Positions 3,715 through 12,599 of a DNA stretch of 12,599 nt are shown piece after piece. Made by a program: the position numbers and the translations under genes. The DNA is taken from positions 1 to 12,599 of the forward strand of contig JAAVAY010000023.1 in assembly GCA_014803815.1 (NCBI GenBank). The letters are read 5' to 3'. Numbering within the stretch: position 1 is the first letter of the stretch; each line of letters opens with the position of its first letter. Source of the DNA: Allobaculum sp. Lineage in GTDB: Bacteria; Bacillota_I; Bacilli_A; Erysipelotrichales; Erysipelotrichaceae. The notes under the pieces are model-generated. The model made no database searches and was not told the origin of the DNA. It saw nothing but the letters and a program-made list of their open reading frames with translations.

Positions 3715-3758
3715 ATGGATATCCAATCCGCAATGAAAATGAATTGGGAAACATTGAT
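3715..3758 (+). CDS. ung: Uracil-DNA glycosylase, exon 1 (5' of group I intron)
   Basis: A short coding exon encoding MDIQSAMKMNWETL plus the first two bases (AT) of an Ile codon. Joined to the exon at 4152 it reads NWETL-I-EQEFQKG, which lines up with the usual Ung N-terminus (B. subtilis WNQLKEEFEKP). The spacing from this Trp to TIYPP is 29 residues by my count, against 28 in B. subtilis and 30 in E. coli. Possible starts are ATG 3715 (spliced protein 232 residues), 3733 or 3739 (224 residues). None has an ideally placed ribosome binding site: AAGGAAGGAG (3683-3692) is 22 bases before 3715, and its GGAG can pair with CTCC just downstream. Unspliced reading continues into the intron and stops at TAA 3769. 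Confidence 0.72.
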
Positions 3759-4151
3759 TTTAAAGCCTTAAAACGCCGAGGTCTTTAAAGTCCCTTCGTA
3801 GAGAAATTTGCGAAGGTAAGGAAAAAGAGATTTTTCCAACTGCTCGAATTGCTGGAAACCCCTAAAGCTTGTCGCACGCAAGCGTGGCGAAAGCAGAAAC
3901 AAGCGACAAGATAGTGCATGGTTCAATCCTAAACACCTTTACAATGGGCAACCAGCAGCCAAGCTTTGTAAAAAGAAGGTTCAACGACTATTCCGAAAGG
4001 AAGTAGGGATGAAGCTATCCCGAAGCGGGCAGCCCTTAACGTGTTAAGGCGAAGGTGAAGAGATAGTCTATGCTTGCATGAAAGTGCAAGAAGAAAAGAT
4101 GGAGTCGTCTTTTCTTCATGGATTTGGCGCATCCATGGAATAAGCAAACAG
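3759..4151 (+). ncRNA. Group I self-splicing intron (subgroup IA-like) in ung, no ORF
   Basis: A 393-base intron. The core elements are in order: P (aattGCTGGaaa, 3847-3858), Q (aaCCAGCagcc, 3950-3960), R (ggttcaacGACTA, 3978-3990) and S (agagaTAGTC, 4059-4068). P1 is GAT|TTTAAAG (3756-3765) with CTTTAAAGTC (3783-3792), giving a U3758.G3790 wobble at the 5' splice site. Further helices: P2 CCTTCG/CGAAGG (3793/3811), P4 GCTGG/CCAGC, P5 GTCGC/GCGAC, P7 GACTA/TAGTC, P7.1 TTCC/GGAA (3991-4002), P7.2 GGGAT/ATCCC (4006-4021), P9 CTTGCA/TGCAAG (4073-4090), P9.1 AAGAAAAGA/TCTTTTCTT (4091-4116), P9.2 CATGGAT/ATCCATG (4117-4137). The terminal G is G4151, after GCAAACA; this choice is forced by the restored ung frame. 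P10 pairing is weak. The P7.1/P7.2 hairpins between R and P3' point to subgroup IA, common in phages. There is no homing endonuclease gene. Confidence 0.9.
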
Positions 4152-4806
4152 AGAACAAGAGTTTCAAAAAGGCGTTTTGGGGCCGATTCGTAGTTTTTTG
4201 GATACGGCCTATCAAGAAAAGACAATTTATCCTCCAAAGGAAGATTTGTTTAAAGCTTTGGAATTAACGCCCATGGATCAGGTAAAAGTGGTGATTTTAG
4301 GGCAAGACCCCTATCATGGGCCAAATCAAGCCCAAGGATTGGCCTTTTCGGTGCCAGCCACCCAAAAAATTCCCCCTTCATTACAAAATATTTATAAGGA
4401 ATTGGAATTGGAGTATCAACAACCCATTTATCGCACAGGCGATTTACAAGATTGGGCTAAACAAGGGGTGTTGTTGCTCAATACTTCTTTAAGTGTGGAG
4501 CAAGGAAAACCGAACTCGCATTCGAAAATTGGTTGGAATCAATTTACGGATGATGTTTTGCGCGCACTCAATGATCTCGATCAGCCCATAGTCTTTATTT
4601 TATGGGGATACAATGCCAGACAAGCAGCACGGTTTTTGAATAACCCGAACCATCTTGTCCTTCAAAGTGTGCATCCTTCCCCTTTATCGGCTCATAAGGG
4701 CTTCTTTGGATGCAATCATTTCAAACAAGCCAATAGTTATTTAGAGGCCAATGGACTCACTCCGATCAATTGGATTGAGGATAATGTAGAAGGATTGAAA
4801 AAGTAG
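4152..4806 (+). CDS. ung: Uracil-DNA glycosylase, exon 2 (catalytic domain)
   Basis: Family 1 uracil-DNA glycosylase, which removes uracil from DNA at the start of base excision repair. Signatures: TIYPPKEDLFKALELTP, the catalytic loop VVILGQDPYHGPN with its Asp and the His after Tyr, AFSVP, the uracil-binding WAKQGVLLLNTSLSV, FILWGYNAR, and the DNA-intercalation loop HPSPLSAHKGFFGCNHF ending in a family-typical TPINW segment. On its own this frame has no credible start: a TTG at 4177 lacks a ribosome binding site and would omit the N-terminal helix. In-frame codons before it (ANREQEFQKGVL) continue the Ung homology back to the intron 3' splice site. Spliced to exon 1, the protein is 224-232 residues, the normal Ung size. 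A 31-residue membrane peptide gene follows after 26 bases and the two share a terminator. Confidence 0.93.
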
Positions 4807-4832
4807 TCCATTCACTATAAGAGGTAGGAAGT

Positions 4833-4928
4833 ATGAACAATGACGATAACAACCAACAATATGGAAAATGGATTTTTTGGATTGTGGTTGGCATTTTAGC
4901 CATTCTTTGTGTGGCTTGGTTTATGTAA
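4833..4928 (+). CDS. 31-residue single-span membrane peptide, unknown function
   Basis: The peptide starts MNNDDNNQQYGKW, a polar Asn/Asp/Gln-rich N-terminus, followed by one hydrophobic helix of about 17-18 residues (IFWIVVGILAILCVAWF) that runs almost to the end. A GAGG (4821-4824) lies eight bases before ATG 4833 and an intrinsic terminator starts at its stop codon. Those signals plus the clean amphipathic layout make it a real small gene, probably co-transcribed with ung. It is not recognisable as a known toxin or holin. It could be a membrane anchor or regulatory micropeptide; function cannot be read from the sequence. Confidence 0.7.
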   Translation: MNNDDNNQQYGKWIFWIVVGILAILCVAWFM

Positions 4929-4967
4929 AAAGCCTGCTCGGTGCTTTGGCCCGACCAGGCTTTTTTT
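4927..4967. terminator. Bidirectional terminator between the ung unit and uvrB
   Basis: AAAAAGCCTG (4927-4936) pairs with CAGGCTTTTT (4956-4965), with an inner TCGG/CCGA helix and a T-run to 4967. The A-tract on the other arm lets it serve uvrB on the minus strand too. Confidence 0.9.
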
Positions 4968-4973
4968 AGATGA

Positions 4974-6956
4974 TTACGTTTCTTTTAGTTCCAACATCAT
5001 ATCGCGCAGTTGAGCGGCGCGTTCGAAATCCAGTTCAGCTGCTGCTTGACGCATCTCCGTTTCAAGTTGAGCAATGTATTTGGCTTTGTCTTTTTTGGTG
5101 AGTTTTTGTCGTCTAGCCAAATAATGGGCGGTCATATCCTTGGTCTCTTTGGAATGGACAACTTCTCGAATCGGTTTAAGAATGGTCTTAGGGATAATGC
5201 CATGTTTAGCATTGTAGTCCATTTGAATGGCGCGGCGTCTAGCCGTTTCATCGATGGCATAGCGCATCGAATCGGTGATGAAATCTCCATACAAAATGAC
5301 TTTTCCATTCGCATTCCGTGCCGCACGCCCAATGATTTGGACTAAAGAGCGCTTGGAACGCAAGAATCCTTCTTTATCCGCATCCAAAATCGCAATGAGT
5401 GACACTTCGGGGATATCCAATCCTTCTCGAAGTAAGTTGATGCCGACGAGAACATCGTATTTTCCCTTGCGCAAATCTTGGATGATTTCGGTGCGTTCAA
5501 TGGTTTTGACTTCATGATGCAACCAAGCGACTTTTAAGCCTTGGTTTTTGAAGTATTCGGTGAGATCTTCCGCCATGCGTACCGTGAGTGTAGTCACTAA
5601 CGTACGCTCATTGCGTTGTACGCGCGCTTTGATTTCATCCACTAAATCATCAATTTGGCCCATCGTAGGACGCACTTCGACTTCGGGATCGAGAAGTCCG
5701 GTGGGACGAATGATTTGTTGGACGATTTCGCCTTGAGTTTGTTCCAGCTCATAATCGCCTGGAGTAGCGGAGACATAAATGGTCTGTGGGGCCTTTTGTT
5801 CAAACTCATCAAAGCGTAAGGGGCGATTGTCTAAAGCTGAAGGCAATCGGAAACCATAATCGACAAGCGTCTGTTTGCGGGCATGATCCCCATTGTACAT
5901 CCCCCGAATTTGAGGAAGCGAAACGTGGGATTCATCCACTACGAGCAAAAAATCTTTGGGGAAGTAGTCAAAAAGCGTATAGGGCGTTTCGCCCTCTTTA
6001 CGTCCATCGATGTGACGGGAATAGTTTTCAATGCCGGAACAAAACCCGAATTGACGCAGGGATTCTATATCATACGTACAGCGTTGAGAAATGCGTTCTT
6101 TTTCCAAAGGCATGTCTTTTTCTTCAAAGTATTCTACTCGTTTGGCTAATTCAGCCTCGATATCATCAGCGGCTCGATGGATGATATCCATACTGGTCGC
6201 ATAGCCAGTAGCGGGATACAAATTGTAAAGCGAATACGCTTGAATGAGTTTTCCGGTTAAGGGATCGATTTCGCAAATGCGTTCAATTTCATCGCCGAAG
6301 AGTTCAATGCGGATGAGAAAGTTTTTCGAATACCCTGGAACAATGTCAATGACATCGCCGCGGACGCGAAAGGTTCCTGGAGCTTGTTCGATGTCGTTGC
6401 GCTTGTATTGTTGGGCAATCAAACGTTTTAACAACTCCTCACGTTCAATGACTTCACCCACACGGATGGTATCGATCATGTCTTTGTATTGTTCAGGATT
6501 AGAGGCTCCATAAATACAGGCCACAGAAGCGACAATGATCGTATCTGGTCGATGCAAGACGGAATTGATGGCGGCCATGCGCAACATATCGAGTTCTTGA
6601 TTGGTTTTGGTGTTCTTATCGATGTAGGTATCGGTTTTGGGTACATAGGCTTCAGGTTGATAAAAATCAAAATATGAGACAAAGTATTCCACGCGATTGT
6701 TAGGAAAAAACTCTTTGAATTCGGCGTACAACTGGCTTGCAAGAGTTTTGTTATGGGCAAAAACCAAAACGGGTTTGTTGACTTGAGCAATGACATTGGA
6801 AATCGTATAGGTTTTTCCCGTTCCTGTCGCTCCAAGCAACACTTGATGCTTTTTTCCCTCTTGAATTCCTTTTACCAGTTCGGCAATGGCTTGTGGTTGG
6901 TCTCCTGAGGGTTGATAGGACGAGATGAGTTCGAATTTTTTTTCTTTTTCGCTCAT
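4974..6956 (-). CDS. uvrB: UvrABC excision nuclease subunit B
   Basis: A 660-residue helicase-like protein that verifies damage loaded by UvrA and positions UvrC for incision in nucleotide excision repair. Domains in order: Walker [11 protein letters not shown] (about 42-51); the damage-probing beta-hairpin with [17 protein letters not shown] (about 95-111); the Walker B/DExH motif [10 protein letters not shown] (about 340); helicase domain 2 with [30 protein letters not shown] and QIIGRAARN; and a C-terminal UVR motif ([16 protein letters not shown]) that contacts UvrC. Length is normal (usual 655-675). The start at ATG 6956 has GAAAGGA about eight bases upstream. uvrA is not adjacent. UvrB genes are often LexA-controlled, but I see no canonical GAAC-N4-GTTC box in the intergenic region shared with ispG. 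Confidence 0.98.
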
Positions 6957-6980
6957 TAAAAAATCCTTTCTAAAAAACAG

Positions 6981-7011
6981 TTCAGAAAATTTCTAACTTA
7001 GATACTATAAA
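6981..7011 (+). promoter_or_regulatory. Candidate promoter for ispG
   Basis: TTCAGA (6981-6986) and TACTAT (7003-7008), 16-base spacer; an overlapping TATAAA at 7006-7011 could also serve as the -10. It sits in the only gap between the divergent genes uvrB and ispG. The matches are moderate. Confidence 0.4.
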
Positions 7012-7047
7012 AAACTCAAGAAGAAAAAAGGAGGAGTGGAAAACATC

Positions 7048-8112
7048 ATGAACCGAATTGAAACACGTCCCGTAAAAGCGGGCAAAGTGCAAATTGGAGG
7101 CAACAACCATGTAGTCATTCAATCCATGTGTTCCATACGCACAGCGAATACCGAGGCTGTGATTGATCAAATTTTAAAGCTCGAGAAACAAGGCTGTGAA
7201 CTCATACGGGTATCCGTTATGGATTTCGAAGATGCCAAAGCCATTGAGACCATTAAAAAACATATTCATATTCCTCTTGTAGCGGATATTCACTTTGACT
7301 ATAAATTAGCCTTAGCCGCCATTGAAGCGGGAGCGGATAAAATTCGCTTGAATCCAGGCAATATTGGATCGCGCAAAAATGTAGAAGCAGTGGTCAAAGC
7401 TTGCAAAGAAAAAGGAATTCCCATTCGCATTGGCATTAACTCAGGTTCTTTAGAAAAAGACATTCACGAAAAGTATGGTAAACCCACAGCGCAGGGCATG
7501 ATTGAATCCGCAAGACGGCATGTGCAAATTTTAGAAGATTTGGATTTTTATGATATTGTCCTTTCCTTTAAATCAAGTGATCCCATTTTGTGCTTAGAGG
7601 TGTATCGTCAAGCTGCCCAAGTTTTTCCCTATCCCTTGCATCTGGGCGTTACGGAAGCGGGAACGGTGATGACTTCCGCCGTAAAATCTACCCTCGCTTT
7701 AGGACCCTTGCTTTTAGAAGGCATTGGCAATACAATTCGCATTTCAGTCAATGGTGAAGCAAGCCTTGAACTTCCCATTGTCAAAGAGCTTTTAAAGGAT
7801 TGTGGACTCAAAAAAGATGTCCCCAATTTAATCGCTTGCCCGAGTTGTGGACGAACAGCTTGGGATATGAAACCAGTCGTTGATGAAATGGAGGAGTGGC
7901 TTCAAACTATTGAAAAGCCAATTACTGTAGCCATTATGGGATGTGCCGTCAATGGTCCAGGAGAGGCTAAACACGCCGATATTGCTATTGCAGGAGGAAA
8001 AGGAGAAGGATTACTTATTCGCAAGGGTGAAATCCTTGCCAAAATTCCACAAGAAGAGATGGTAGACCGTTTAAAAGCAGAAGTTTTGACCTTTAAGTCC
8101 AATGCCGAATAA
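7048..8112 (+). CDS. ispG: 4-hydroxy-3-methylbut-2-en-1-yl diphosphate synthase (GcpE)
   Basis: The [4Fe-4S] enzyme of the MEP isoprenoid pathway that converts MEcPP to HMBPP. It opens with the family N-terminus RPVKAGKVQIGGNNHVVIQSM, then an aldolase-like barrel (PLVADIHFDYKLA, DKIRLNPGNIG, PIRIGINSGSLE, LHLGVTEAG). The reductase-like C-terminal part carries the cluster cysteines C264 and C267 (CPSCGRT) and C299 (MGCAVNGPGEA), with the conserved Glu of NGPGE. Its 354 residues fit the family (about 350-400). I chose ATG 7048 because MNRIETRPV matches relatives and a strong AAGGAGGA lies 13 bases upstream. A GTG at 7036 is only one base from that site, which is too close. It is followed by a probable terminator. 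Confidence 0.96.
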   Translation: MNRIETRPVKAGKVQIGGNNHVVIQSMCSIRTANTEAVIDQILKLEKQGCELIRVSVMDFEDAKAIETIKKHIHIPLVADIHFDYKLALAAIEAGADKIRLNPGNIGSRKNVEAVVKACKEKGIPIRIGINSGSLEKDIHEKYGKPTAQGMIESARRHVQILEDLDFYDIVLSFKSSDPILCLEVYRQAAQVFPYPLHLGVTEAGTVMTSAVKSTLALGPLLLEGIGNTIRISVNGEASLELPIVKELLKDCGLKKDVPNLIACPSCGRTAWDMKPVVDEMEEWLQTIEKPITVAIMGCAVNGPGEAKHADIAIAGGKGEGLLIRKGEILAKIPQEEMVDRLKAEVLTFKSNAE

Positions 8113-8150
8113 AAGTCCTTGAGCCTAAAGAAAATGCTAGACTTTTTTTT
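8111..8150 (+). terminator. Probable terminator / attenuator-like region after ispG
   Basis: AAAAGTC (8111-8117, overlapping the stop codon) can pair with GACTTTT (8140-8146), with an inner AGC/GCT and a T-run to 8150. A competing hairpin, TAGACTTTT (8138-8146) with AAAAGTCTA (8151-8159), uses the same 3' arm, so the two cannot form together. Confidence 0.55.
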
Positions 8151-8172
8151 AAAAGTCTAAGGAGAATAGACC

Positions 8173-8193
8173 ATGGCTGATTGTTTTCTTTAG
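8173..8193 (+). other. Possible six-codon leader ORF (MADCFL) before pta
   Basis: ATG 8173 has AAGGAG eight bases upstream, a better site than many genes here, but the frame stops after six codons. The region also carries repeated TAGAC/GTCTA arms (8138, 8155, 8167, 8191) and CCATG/CATGG (8171/8195) that can pair, so the motif may be part of a folded leader or a gene remnant. It is upstream of the likely pta promoter. Function uncertain. Confidence 0.2.
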
Positions 8194-8259
8194 ACATGGA
8201 AATCAAAAAGGAATTTCAAAGAGATTTGTTTTTTATCTCTTGTGAAGAAATACACCAAT

Positions 8260-8288
8260 TTTTCAAACGCTTTCACTCATGGTACTAT
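8260..8288 (+). promoter_or_regulatory. Candidate pta promoter
   Basis: TTTTCA (8260-8265) and TACTAT (8283-8288) with a 17-base spacer; transcription would start near 8295, about 40 bases before ATG 8335. Each hexamer matches four of six consensus bases. Confidence 0.45.
8262..8275 (+). promoter_or_regulatory. CcpA cre-like operator overlapping the pta -35
   Basis: TTCAAACGCTTTCA fits the palindromic cre consensus (TGWNANCGNTNWCA) at about 12 of 14 positions in either orientation, including the central CG. In Bacillus, pta is directly activated by CcpA through a cre upstream of the -35; here the site overlaps the -35, which would more often mean repression. Binding is inferred. Confidence 0.45.
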
Positions 8289-8334
8289 TGAAGGGAAGTA
8301 AATCTACACTTTAATGGAGTATAAGAGGTAGTTC

Positions 8335-9327
8335 ATGATTATTGATAAACTTATTGATCTTGTTCGAGGCAAAGATACACGTATTGTCTTTACAGAAGGC
8401 TGGGATCCACGTGTTATGGGCGCGGCTGTTAAACTTCAAAAAGATAATTTGGTAAAACCCATTTTGCTTGGGGAAAAAGAAGAAGTAGAAGCTTGCGCCA
8501 AAGAAAACGGATTTGATATCACCGGCATTGAAGTCATTGCTCCTTCAGAATTCAAAGACATCGATCAGATGGCGACCCGTATGGTTGACTTACGCCGTGG
8601 TCGTATTTCGATGGAAGGCGCACAAGAAGCTCTGACTCATACCAACTACTTTGGAACAATGCTTGTGGAAATGGGCTTGGCGGATGGCTTACTTGGTGGA
8701 GCCACATACTCCACAGCCGATACGGTTCGTCCAGCTTTACAGTTGATCAAGACTGCTCCTGGTGAATCTCTTGTTTCATCTACTTTTATTTTGATCAAAG
8801 ACGATAACCAGCTCTTCATGGCTGACTGTGCAATCAACCGCGATCCAAATCCAGATGAACTCGTTGAAATCGCCATTCAAACCGCTCAAACAGCGAAAAA
8901 ATTTGGGGTAGAACCACGTGTAGCGCTTCTTTCTTACTCGTCTTTTGGTTCAGCTACTGGTCATTGTGTAGCGAAAATGTCAGAAGCTACGACTCGTTTA
9001 AAACGTATGACGCTTGATTTTGCGGTGGATGGTGAAATGCAATTTGACTGTGCTGTTTCTCCAGAAGTAGCTGCTTTAAAAGCTCCAGATTCCCCCGTAG
9101 CGGGCTATGCCAATACTTTTGTTTTCCCAAACTTATCCTCTGGTAACATTGGCTATAAGATCGCCGCTCGTCTTGGGGGTTGGGAAGCCATCGGACCTAT
9201 TCTTCAAGGATTGAATGCTCCGATCAATGACTTATCTCGTGGAGCCAACGAAGAAGAAATTTATAAAATGGCGATTGTAACCGCTGCCCAAAAAGTGGCC
9301 CGCGATACTAAACTCGATCATATTTAA
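8335..9327 (+). CDS. pta: Phosphate acetyltransferase
   Basis: Interconverts acetyl-CoA and acetyl phosphate; with acetate kinase it makes ATP and acetate in overflow or fermentative metabolism. At 330 residues it is the short single-domain Gram-positive form. Signatures: RIVFTEGWDPRVMGAA, PILLGEKEEV, TNYFGTMLVEMGLADGLLGGA, the catalytic-region STADTVRPALQ, ADCAINRDPNPDELVEIA, ALLSYSSFGSA, DGEMQFDCAVSPE, and ANTFVFPNLSSGNIGYKIA near the end. GAGG (8325-8328) lies six bases before ATG 8335. Codons lean towards CGT and TCT more than in the neighbours, as expected of a highly expressed central-metabolism gene. No ackA is adjacent; it is a stand-alone unit with its own promoter and terminator. 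Confidence 0.98.
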   Translation: MIIDKLIDLVRGKDTRIVFTEGWDPRVMGAAVKLQKDNLVKPILLGEKEEVEACAKENGFDITGIEVIAPSEFKDIDQMATRMVDLRRGRISMEGAQEALTHTNYFGTMLVEMGLADGLLGGATYSTADTVRPALQLIKTAPGESLVSSTFILIKDDNQLFMADCAINRDPNPDELVEIAIQTAQTAKKFGVEPRVALLSYSSFGSATGHCVAKMSEATTRLKRMTLDFAVDGEMQFDCAVSPEVAALKAPDSPVAGYANTFVFPNLSSGNIGYKIAARLGGWEAIGPILQGLNAPINDLSRGANEEEIYKMAIVTAAQKVARDTKLDHI

Positions 9328-9337
9328 TGCCCACGGT

Positions 9338-9370
9338 AAGCTATTCAGTTTAGGCTGAATGGCTTTTTTT
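9338..9370 (+). terminator. Intrinsic terminator after pta
   Basis: AAGCTATTCAG (9338-9348) pairs with CTGAATGGCTT (9355-9365, one T.G wobble), followed by a T-run to 9370. Confidence 0.9.
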
Positions 9371-9416
9371 CTTTTGCATTTCTGTCTTATCCTCAAAAGA
9401 GGCTTTGAAAGGACGA

Positions 9417-9425
9417 TGGTATACT
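9417..9425 (+). promoter_or_regulatory. Extended -10 promoter for the intron-split gene
   Basis: TGGTATACT: a TGn extension with -10 TATACT at 9420-9425 and no good -35 at the right distance. Transcription would begin about 9431-9433, at or next to ATG 9433, so the first start codon may be leaderless. Confidence 0.45.
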
Positions 9426-9432
9426 AAAAGAG

Positions 9433-9669
9433 ATGAAAAAAAATGAAATAATTCCTTGGGACCTCGAAGAAGGTACGGCCATGGATTATGTAGATGGCGT
9501 CTTGTGTTTGGTAATAAAGGACGATGAGTGGAATGAAAACCAACTGCAAGCCGCTAATGATCCATTTTCGGTACTGGCTTGCGAGACCAATGGACTGCTG
9601 ATCTTTTTAGTAGAAGGCGGTCCTCTTGATTATTTGGTGTGGAATCCAAGTCCATGGAACCCACGTTTT
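9433..9669 (+). CDS. Unknown protein, exon 1 (5' of group I intron)
   Basis: Encodes 79 residues starting MKKNEIIPWDLEEGTAM and ending PSPWNPRF, immediately before the intron, whose first three bases are the stop codon TAG. It is predicted to be a soluble beta-rich domain with alternating hydrophobic strands (GVLCLVIKDDEW, GLLIFLVEGGPLDYLVW). I do not recognise the family. The start is uncertain: ATG 9433 has no clear ribosome binding site and sits where the extended -10 promoter would start transcription. ATG 9481 (MDYVDGVLC) has AAGG about nine bases upstream and is the alternative. The natural product is almost certainly the spliced form with the exon at 10102, about 175 residues in all; an unspliced transcript would yield this 79-residue piece only. 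Confidence 0.65.
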
Positions 9670-10101
9670 TAGTCAGTTGGTAGGGAAACTTGCCAATTAA
9701 GGAGAAATTCCAATACTGCTCGAATTGCTGAAATCCCCCAAAGCCGACTTTGCCTGGAAAGCTTTCCAGGCCACGAAAGTAGAAACAAATAGGTTGGATG
9801 GCGCATGGTTAAATCCTAAACGCTCTTTTTTATGCATCTCTTTGGATCCACTCTCAAAGGAATATGAATAAGAAAACAACGGGCAATCAGCAGCCAAGCT
9901 TTGAAAGAAGAAGGTTCAACGACTATCCCTCTTGAGGGGAGTAGGAATCAAGCGATTCCGAAGTGGGCAGCCCTTAGCACGTGATGGTGAAGGTGAAGAG
10001 ATAGTCTGTGCTCATGTGAAAGCATGAGAAGTTTGAAAAAAACTGTGCAAGTGTAGCGAACTTGTATGAACACGCCTTGCATTTTTTCATCATGCAAGCA
10101 G
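9670..10101 (+). ncRNA. Second group I intron (subgroup IA-like), related to the ung intron
   Basis: A 432-base intron with P (aattGCTGAaa, 9723-9733), Q (caaTCAGCagcc, 9884-9894), R (ggttcaacGACTA, 9913-9925) and S (agagaTAGTC, 9997-10006). P1 is GTTTT|T (9665-9670) with GGAAAC (9684-9689), with U9669.G9685 at the 5' splice site. P7.1 CCCTC/GAGGG (9927-9938), P7.2 GGAAT/ATTCC (9944-9959), P9 CTCATG/CATGAG (10011-10028), P9.1 AGTTT/AAACT (10030-10044), possible P9.2 CTTGCAT/ATGCAAG (10076-10098). The terminal G is placed at G10101: the end GCAAGCAG resembles GCAAACAG of the ung intron, and 3' exon CCTG (10103-10106) can form P10 with TAGG (9681-9684). G10056 and G10068 also keep the frame and are less likely alternatives. 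It exceeds the first intron mainly by a peripheral insertion around 9820-9875. No endonuclease gene. Confidence 0.88.
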
Positions 10102-10392
10102 ACCTGCGATTTTTATTTCAATGTACAAGAGTGCGACGAAAAAGAGGCTTTGTTGCAAGCGAGCAATTTGGAAGTCAAAGCTCTGTTGGTGGATAAAGAC
10201 AATGTCATCAAAGCCATCAAATCAGCGACTCTATCCAAGGTCTTAACCAAAGAGCTTCATGATCTCTTTGAAAAACAAGCGAAGTATCGTTTTTTACCTG
10301 GTGAATACGATGCGAACTTGGATGGATTGCAAGCGTCCTTTGAACCGGCCGAACTCGCGCGCTATGCCAAAGTGCAATTCGCACTCAAGTAA
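10102..10392 (+). CDS. Unknown protein, exon 2 (3' of group I intron)
   Basis: Encodes 96 residues beginning TCDFYFNVQECDEKEALL. With exon 1 the junction reads PWNPRF-TCDFYFNVQEC, a plausible strand, and both splice sites are at codon boundaries. The rest is mixed: a strand NLEVKALLVDKDN, helical segments (TLSKVLTKELHDLFEKQAKY), then PGEYDANLDGLQASFEPAELARYAKVQFALK. The frame stays open upstream to an ATG at 10066, but that ATG has no ribosome binding site and its first 12 codons overlap the proposed intron 3' end hairpin, so I regard it as an artefact. No family recognised, no signal peptide or membrane segment. Followed by a strong terminator. Confidence 0.65.
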   Translation, partial: TCDFYFNVQECDEKEALLQASNLEVKALLVDKDNVIKAIKSATLSKVLTKELHDLFEKQAKYRFLPGEYDANLDGLQASFEPAELARYAKVQFALK

Positions 10393-12409: not shown

Positions 12410-12599
12410 ATGAATACGAAGATAAGAAGGAGTACGGATGGGAAGCTTGAAGAGAGGCAGTGGTTGGTGAGAACTGCTAGTGGAATGTCCCGAACGCATC
12501 TTGGAGTGCGGGTTGGCCCCCGCCGTCTCATCCGCGTTAAGGAAAAAAGAGTCCTGACCCCAGTGGGTATTTGTGTCAGGGAAGTCAGGTGGTACCGCG
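12410..12599 (+). promoter_or_regulatory. T-box leader (tRNA-sensing), truncated at window end
   Basis: Conserved elements in order: AGTA of the Stem I specifier loop (AAGGAGTACGG, about 12427-12437); AGAGAG followed by GCAGT-GGTTGGTGAGA-ACTGC, the Stem I apical module (12453-12479); GAACGCATCTTGGAG on the 3' side of the specifier loop; a GCGGG/CCCGC hairpin; GTTAAGG; a Stem III with CCTGAC/GTCAGG; and the T-box itself, AAGTCAGGTGGTACCGCG, at the last bases. By position after GAA and before ATC the specifier looks like CGC (Arg), which would make the downstream gene argS or an arginine gene; AAC or GCA are alternatives by a shifted reading. The terminator/antiterminator and the regulated gene lie beyond the window. 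Confidence 0.92.

Follow-up and report, generated by a model that had tools for sequence, protein, structure and literature searches.

Group A IStrons, among them CdISt1, EfISt1 and FnISt1, combine a group I intron of subclass IA2 with an insertion sequence (IS) of the IS200/IS605 type; the survey by Tourasse et al. (2014; PMC4227781) describes them as inserting behind TTGAT, ATTAT or TTTAT, and TTGAT is also the target of the IS200/IS605 element IS8301/ISDra2. In the same description the IS joins the intron behind helix P9.2, after one of five short motifs (GAACGA, GAACAA, GAACAC, GAAUAA or GAAUAU), a stem of 6-10 base pairs (bp) encloses the IS, and the element ends in TCAG. Here we describe two introns in a stretch of Allobaculum sp. 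DNA (contig JAAVAY010000023.1, 12,599 nucleotides (nt), hereafter the window), one in ung, which encodes uracil-DNA glycosylase, and one in a conserved gene of unknown function, gene 2. Both are group I introns of subclass IA2, most likely of the lineage to which the RNA half of group A IStrons belongs, and both are predicted to splice; each stands directly behind TTGAT and neither carries an IS.

The borders of the two introns were read from a stretch of Erysipelotrichaceae bacterium RD49 (L001), retrieved by one genome-contig scan with the second exon of Ung (69% identity), in which both genes are uninterrupted. Nine of ten query pieces from the window are collinear and in the same orientation in L001, the tenth being the 12-residue Ung N-terminus, which is too short to match there; no group I intron scores above the cut-off in the L001 stretch, nor in the one RD49 genome that holds it (0/1). 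Comparison with MNWEEFFQQEFQKGVLGP and EGGPLDTCDFYF of L001 places intron 1 at 3759-4151 and intron 2 at 9631-10101; at the gene 2 site the uninterrupted protein of L001 reads EGGPLD followed by TCDFYF. The two loci are composed of the following features:

3733 to 3758, plus strand: 5' exon of ung, ending in ACATTGAT; the spliced sequence MKMNWETLIEQEFQKGVLGP matches MNWEEFFQQEFQKGVLGP of L001
3754 to 3758, plus strand: TTGAT at the 5' splice site of intron 1, the lone coding-strand TTGAT of spliced ung
3756 to 3792, plus strand: P1 of intron 1, in which guide GUC pairs with exon GAU and U3758 faces G3790, with an extension inside the intron
3759 to 4151, plus strand: intron 1, group I (IA2-type), 393 nt, ending AAACAG; covariance model RF00028, borders from L001
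4117 to 4143, plus strand: P9.2 hairpin of intron 1 (CATGGAT/ATCCATG), then GAATAA (4138-4143); from repeats, RNA fold and the motif list
4152 to 4806, plus strand: 3' exon of ung; Pfam UDG and NCBIfam ung equivalogs, 69% identity to L001
9433 to 9630, plus strand: 5' exon of gene 2, ending in CTCTTGAT
9626 to 9630, plus strand: TTGAT at the 5' splice site of intron 2, the lone coding-strand TTGAT of spliced gene 2
9626 to 9676, plus strand: P1 of intron 2, in which exon UUGAU can pair with GUCAG, U9630 opposite G9672
9631 to 10101, plus strand: intron 2, group I (IA2-type), 471 nt, ending AAGCAG; RF00028, borders from L001
10068 to 10101, plus strand: right end of intron 2, with GAACAC (10068-10073), a 7-bp stem CTTGCAT/ATGCAAG (10076-10082 with 10092-10098) and CAG
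10102 to 10392, plus strand: 3' exon of gene 2; of its 12 relatives, 8 read through the insertion site without a break

Once the exons are joined, from ACATTGAT to AGAACA in ung and from CTTGAT to ACCTGC in gene 2, open frames of 226 and 162 codons result; unspliced, the frames end at in-frame stops inside intron 1 (3769-3771) and intron 2 (TAG at 9670-9672, before P2). The start of ung is uncertain, a second possible in-frame ATG lying upstream at 3715. The first exon of gene 2 has the same residue as L001 at 43 of 66 codons (nonsynonymous divergence dN 0.22, synonymous divergence dS 1.36, the latter computable for this exon only among the four), and third codon positions differ more than first and second positions both in the second exon of Ung (127/212 versus 94/424) and in that of gene 2 (59/96 versus 49/192). 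The preservation of the host frames points to splicing, if the first exons are to matter.

The assignment to group I is based on a covariance model and on comparative structure. The Rfam model RF00028 (Intron_gpI, gathering score 50) covers 3790-4090 with 93.7 bits (E 1.6e-23) and 9672-10028 with 75.1 bits (E 6e-18). An alignment was made of ten introns, composed of the window pair, four from three genomes of the family of RD49, a further one from a genome of the same order, and three from mobile elements (a Clostridioides phage, an Enterococcus plasmid and a Paenibacillus larvae plasmid); its consensus fold has 98 pairs, 62 of which are changed on both sides. Of 962 pairing cells 95.4% are paired, none of 500 shuffles equals any of five measures, and pairing falls to 31-43% once the 3' partners are slid, a comparison in which the consensus, drawn from the same alignment and with P7 entered as a pseudoknot, is favoured over the slid versions. 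All four P7 pairs and four of the six P4 pairs are invariant across the ten introns, while the fit is weakest in outer P7.2, P8 and P9.2 (75-83% of cells paired). Both introns of the window thus show the P3-P8 core with the P, Q, R and S elements; P7.1/P7.2 and P9.0/P9.1/P9.2, which align with those of IStron introns and mark subclass IA2, are also present in both, and the three P9 helices appear in single-sequence RNA folds as well (z-score -4.00 for intron 1, -1.90 for intron 2).

The ends of the introns are those of the group: the last base of the 5' exon, a U, lies opposite a G in P1, and the last base of the intron is a G. P1 of intron 1, whose arms are repeats at 3756-3765 and 3783-3792 and which has the stop TAA (3769-3771) on its loop side, folds at -26.4 kcal/mol (z -5.35, RNA, 3750-3825), and that of intron 2 has a z-score of -3.03 over 9622-9705. 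A different P1 for intron 1, with the splice behind GCCTT, also pairs, yet it is excluded by the spliced frame and by L001. No plus-strand open reading frame (ORF) of at least 60 amino acids, and hence no homing endonuclease gene, was listed as confined to either intron; two minus-strand ORFs of that size, one crossing the end of intron 1 (3929-4237) and one in intron 2 (9697-9897), have no Pfam match, and a plus-strand ORF that begins inside intron 2 at 10066 continues as exon 2.

A first-pass annotation made from the letters alone had proposed that two protein genes of chromosomal type each hold a group I intron of subclass IA, the two introns being related and free of an endonuclease, with helices P4, P7.1, P7.2 and P9 kept by compensatory changes. 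The covariance model, the covariation, in which these helices are all present, and the ORF search bear this out. Its limits for intron 1 and its end of intron 2 at 10101 also hold; its start of intron 2 at 9670 lies 39 nt too late, as the alignment with L001 and the P1 fold place it at 9631.

The same annotation had assigned different target sequences to the two introns, a point contradicted by the junction common to both sites, TTGAT followed by A. In the 10,023 nt of coding sequence of the window, 25 of 2756 T end a TTGAT, both insertion sites included, and 25 of 247 GAT belong to a TTGAT, which gives a probability of about 0.01 for both introns even if the guide imposes GAU. As read from the P1 folds, the guide pairs with all five bases in intron 2 and with GAU only in intron 1; intron-exon pairing therefore explains GAU and leaves the preceding TT of intron 1 unexplained. 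Insertion behind TTGAT is one of the properties of group A IStrons.

A second property is found at the 3' ends. Both introns have one of the listed motifs after P9.2, GAATAA in intron 1 and GAACAC in intron 2, with no IS after it. Only 8 nt, ending in CAG, separate GAATAA from the end of intron 1. The 7-bp stem of intron 2, which is present in the RNA fold of 10008-10101, is together with the terminal CAG possibly what remains of a group A IStron's stem and right end.

Comparison with described systems (PMC4227781 and, for recA and similar genes, PMC3984707) shows how far the likeness goes. The window introns share with group A IStrons the IA2 fold with P7.1/P7.2 and P9.0-P9.2, the TTGAT target, the absence of a target duplication (window against L001), a listed motif after P9.2, a CAG-like end and a location within chromosomal protein genes; they differ in having no TnpA or TnpB, in their length (393 and 471 nt versus 482-2582 nt), in ending ACAG and GCAG instead of TCAG, and, for intron 1, in having no IS stem. 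Since the IS ORFs and the TCAG end are absent, these are IS-free introns of IStron type and not IStrons by definition. The ORF-less copies of BcISt1 (group B) in emetic Bacillus cereus have likewise lost both ORFs, keep a stem at the former place of the IS and are vertically inherited at orthologous loci; they have a GG-ending target and a CGG end and occur in one strain cluster, whereas the window introns are seemingly present in several species. An IS-free TTGAT intron of Fusobacterium, likened here from its published description, is a stand-alone IA2 intron without IS stem and with a non-IStron 3' end, as intron 1 is, but belongs to another phylum.

In Bacillus and its relatives, recA, nrdE and flagellin genes are also known to contain group I introns (PMC3984707); some of these are reported to resemble phage introns, and the passages concerned mention no TTGAT rule. 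Moreover, the survey (PMC4227781) places 118 of the 202 IStron sites for which genes were predicted inside a gene, and it was an overstatement of the first-pass annotation to call introns in housekeeping-type genes unusual. The terminase intron of Enterocloster phage CB457P1 (L131) has the same core and a guide for GAU; it differs by its endonuclease gene and its apparent TTGGAT site. The string "Erysipelotrich" is absent from the main text of the survey by Tourasse et al., and a literature search that left subscription papers mostly outside its reach returned no paper which, judged from the listings, describes these introns; the one paper that surfaced for "group I intron" combined with "Erysipelotrich" was a C. 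difficile study. The present introns thus extend the IStron type to a lineage of the Erysipelotrichaceae that the main text of the survey does not name.

We consider it probable that both are introns of group A IStron type which were placed behind TTGAT by a TnpA-type event, are free of their IS and have been kept by splicing. An IStron-type element would have been placed behind TTGAT in ung and in gene 2 by TnpA, the HUH transposase of IS200/IS605 elements, acting on single-stranded DNA; the transposase region would then have been lost, or would never have been in the copy if this moved in trans. The ribozyme would have been retained since both genes can be read through only after splicing, and both introns would since have been inherited with the chromosome. 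The proposed splicing steps follow established group I intron chemistry: guanosine would attack behind the U of TTGAU, at the U-G pair of P1, and the freed exon would then attack behind the terminal G. Ribosomes may be held back from the ribozyme by the in-frame stop that comes early, near P1. Two IS-free copies seemingly common to several species can show how a selfish chimera of intron and transposon settles down as a self-splicing intron on its own, and which of its two parts, ribozyme or transposon, determines the target word.

Several observations weigh against this explanation. A repeat search finds no IS stem in intron 1, the stem of intron 2 is absent from the DNA fold of 10028-10110, and the left ends give weak DNA folds (z -1.70 and -0.69), so that TnpA hairpins are not evident; the termini have CAG alone in common with TCAG, and no TnpA or TnpB was found in the introns or among the scanned proteins of the window. 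The phage intron L131, of the same class, seemingly lies behind TTGGAT, as its exon aligns with relatives up to that word, which indicates that GAU belongs to the ribozyme and that TT need not. The intron-bearing state of other species is deduced from protein fragments, not from DNA, and short ORFs also arise at contig ends.

The trees of the ribozyme core point in the same direction. In a tree of 19 cores, introns 1 and 2 pair (76/82) outside a branch with the IStron-type rows (83/85); 19 of 20 rows were kept, and phage row C72C1, whose P4 start could not be located, is in neither tree. In a second tree, made without the Finegoldia and G276 rows because of their very long branches in the first (the core start of Finegoldia is probably misplaced), ten IStron-type rows form a branch (80/85) and the window pair stands adjacent, beside and not inside it; a joint branch of both is unsupported (39/0). 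The approximately unbiased (AU) test rejects a branch that unites the window pair with the other Erysipelotrichaceae elements (p-AU 0.007) and does not reject one that unites it with phage intron L131 (p-AU 0.30). Descent from an IStron is consequently not shown by these trees, which would allow an old IStron that lost its IS and, just as well, a free-standing sister lineage. Introns 1 and 2 are not recent copies of each other: their best local match is 82% over 137 nt, and they are 73% identical over 261 core columns.

This sister relation is the basis of the alternative that survives best, although we regard it as unlikely: that both are free-standing IA2 introns, sister to IStrons or older, as has been proposed for the Fusobacterium intron, which were never associated with an IS, TTGAT being due to guide pairing and chance, or the introns being raw material later captured by an IS. 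It agrees with the place of introns 1 and 2 beside the IStron-type rows, with the missing IS stem of intron 1 and the non-TCAG ends of both, with a GAU intrinsic to the guide, and with the fact that such an intron, the Fusobacterium one, is called distinct in the main text of PMC4227781. It has to contend with the full TTGAT at both sites in spite of the GAU-only pairing of intron 1, with the GAACAC, stem and CAG of intron 2, which are as in IStrons, and with the weak support of the joint branch. A variant that we think rather doubtful combines the two views, in that a free-standing TTGAT-targeting lineage, sister to IStrons, would have been moved in trans by an IS200/IS605 transposase, as a non-autonomous element resembling miniature inverted-repeat transposable elements (MITEs), intron 2 then being a half-way state between bare ribozyme and IStron. 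The TnpA loci of RD49, examined as a source in trans, gave only short matches, of 16-24 bases, to L135, L140 and L142. If the variant were true, the succession of steps by which IStrons arise or decay could be read directly.

The first-pass annotation had favoured a phage-type IA intron as the source, from which copies spread to unrelated sites by reverse splicing or by homing with a trans-acting endonuclease; this now appears improbable. The ribozyme class does occur in phages (48 and 79 phage records with blastn matches), a GIY-YIG endonuclease gene lies in the intron of the Enterocloster phage, and the grouping of that intron with the window pair survives the AU test. Homing requires the same gene in donor and recipient, however, and ung and gene 2 have in common only TTGAT followed by A at the junction. 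No endonuclease was found in the window by the ORF list or Pfam; the common word is that of group A IStrons and of IS8301/ISDra2, and a related TnpA/TnpB element of the same bacterial family (L111) stands behind the same word. Nothing positive speaks for this mode of spread. That the introns are non-splicing remnants, the genes being dead or read from internal starts (in-frame TTG at 4177 in ung exon 2, ATG at 10066 for gene 2 exon 2), is conceivable insofar as splicing is predicted, yet it is highly improbable given intact frames in both exons of both genes, a constrained first exon of gene 2, conserved ribozyme helices with invariant P7 pairs, and the 66 N-terminal residues that gene 2 would lose by such a start.

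Returning to introns placed behind TTGAT by a TnpA-type event, relatives of the host proteins give an indication of their age. For gene 2, four relatives of exon 2 are without the first 66 residues, P0001 (99% identity, 17 contigs) and P0002, P0003 and P0005 (74-80%), and eight of the twelve, P0004 and P0006-P0012 (55-68%), read through the site; among the latter P0008 and P0009 begin within exon 1 yet cross the insertion site. For Ung, N-termini were read for nine of 120 listed sequences: P0013 (91%), P0014 (81%) and P0016 (84%) are without the xWE-type N-terminus, which is present in P0015, P0017, P0018, P0020, P0029 and P0033 (53-71%). As the nearest proteins are without residues of the 5' exon and more distant ones have them, the introns probably predate the split of several species and would have been inherited vertically. 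P0013 starts MSREQEFQ, the reading that A-GAA-CAA would give directly after an intron with the end AGCAG. P0002 starts with MLVRKYKK and runs to CEQNSLFSSKDQ, joined to TCDFYF; its LVRKYKK, chosen by eye, is codon-compatible with the P9 hairpin of a related intron (L117, described below) at 20 of 21 positions, a fit that no 7-mer among 2964 controls from Ung relatives equals. This matters for annotation: for both host proteins the nearest database entries are odd ORFs or have a truncated N-terminus, as expected from a missed intron.

IStron-type introns occur in other genomes of this bacterial group. For the related elements, borders were read by eye from frames and motifs in L111, L117, L108 and L132 and are approximate in L109, L128 and L129, with no intron-free homologue behind any of them. 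L111 (1448-3348, genome G195 of the family of RD49) is a full group A IStron behind TTTGAT, with intron, Y1_Tnp and OrfB_IS605; its host frame has no Pfam match and may, as a guess from its neighbour, be comEC. Genome G043 holds two ORF-less IStron-type introns, both ending ACAG and 88.5% identical over 323 nt: L117 (504-989), behind TTTTGAT near the start of a HAD-hydrolase gene, and L108 (1176-1892, minus strand), behind GATTAT in the gene for topoisomerase IV subunit A. Y1_Tnp has no match in this genome; five Cas12f1-like_TNB (TnpB C-terminal) matches are present, one with an internal stop. In another genome L132 (1430-1830, minus strand), an intron without ORF that resembles group B, stands behind GGGG and, judged from the reading frame, ends in ACGG. 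L117, L108 and L132 indicate that IS-free introns of IStron type recur in this group.

In scans for further copies, RF00028 gave matches at E <= 0.001 in 9 of 272 genomes of the family, four of them above the cut-off, under stricter filters and with no listed genome having more than 7 candidates scored, so that absence there is weak evidence. A blastn search with intron 2, taken from 9632, one base inside the border, gave matches in 5 of 266 family and 6 of 315 order genomes with 2 candidates scored per genome, and an exact core pattern had no match in viral contigs. Among mobile elements, L130 of a Clostridioides phage stands behind TTGAT, followed by a frame that looks TnpB-like by eye, and L131 (1630-3621) is the Enterocloster phage terminase gene split by the IA intron.

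Some of these loci have further peculiarities. By eye, the intron of L117 lies inside the DxD motif of the HAD hydrolase. L108 has about 275 nt beyond P9.2, which could be an omega-RNA or a remnant of the IS. The host of L132 is a small gene beside genes resembling those of an integrative element. On a Paenibacillus larvae plasmid (L129, 1-2732) two group I intron matches flank a TnpB gene, the second ending GGTTCAG if ORF-less. In L115 a RAGATH-18 RNA (RF03064, 70 bits, 1401-1475) lies directly upstream of the R-to-S segment of a group I intron, with a TnpB-like C-terminus downstream of the segment.

The gene order of the window is the chromosomal order of L001. By Pfam and NCBIfam, its genes encode an S41 peptidase, an ECF transporter-like protein, a Mur-ligase-like protein, which by position and length we read as FolC, uracil-DNA glycosylase, UvrB, GcpE/IspG, a phosphate acetyl/butyryl transferase and an ACT-domain protein, followed by hypothetical PRK05313. 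L001 has a tetrahydrofolate (THF) riboswitch (RF01831) at 7804-7901, downstream of the folC-like region of RD49, and none was reported in the window. Apart from the two Intron_gpI matches, Rfam gives one further match in the window that exceeds the cut-off of its family, a T-box leader (RF00230, 93.1 bits) at 12410-12599, truncated by the end of the window.

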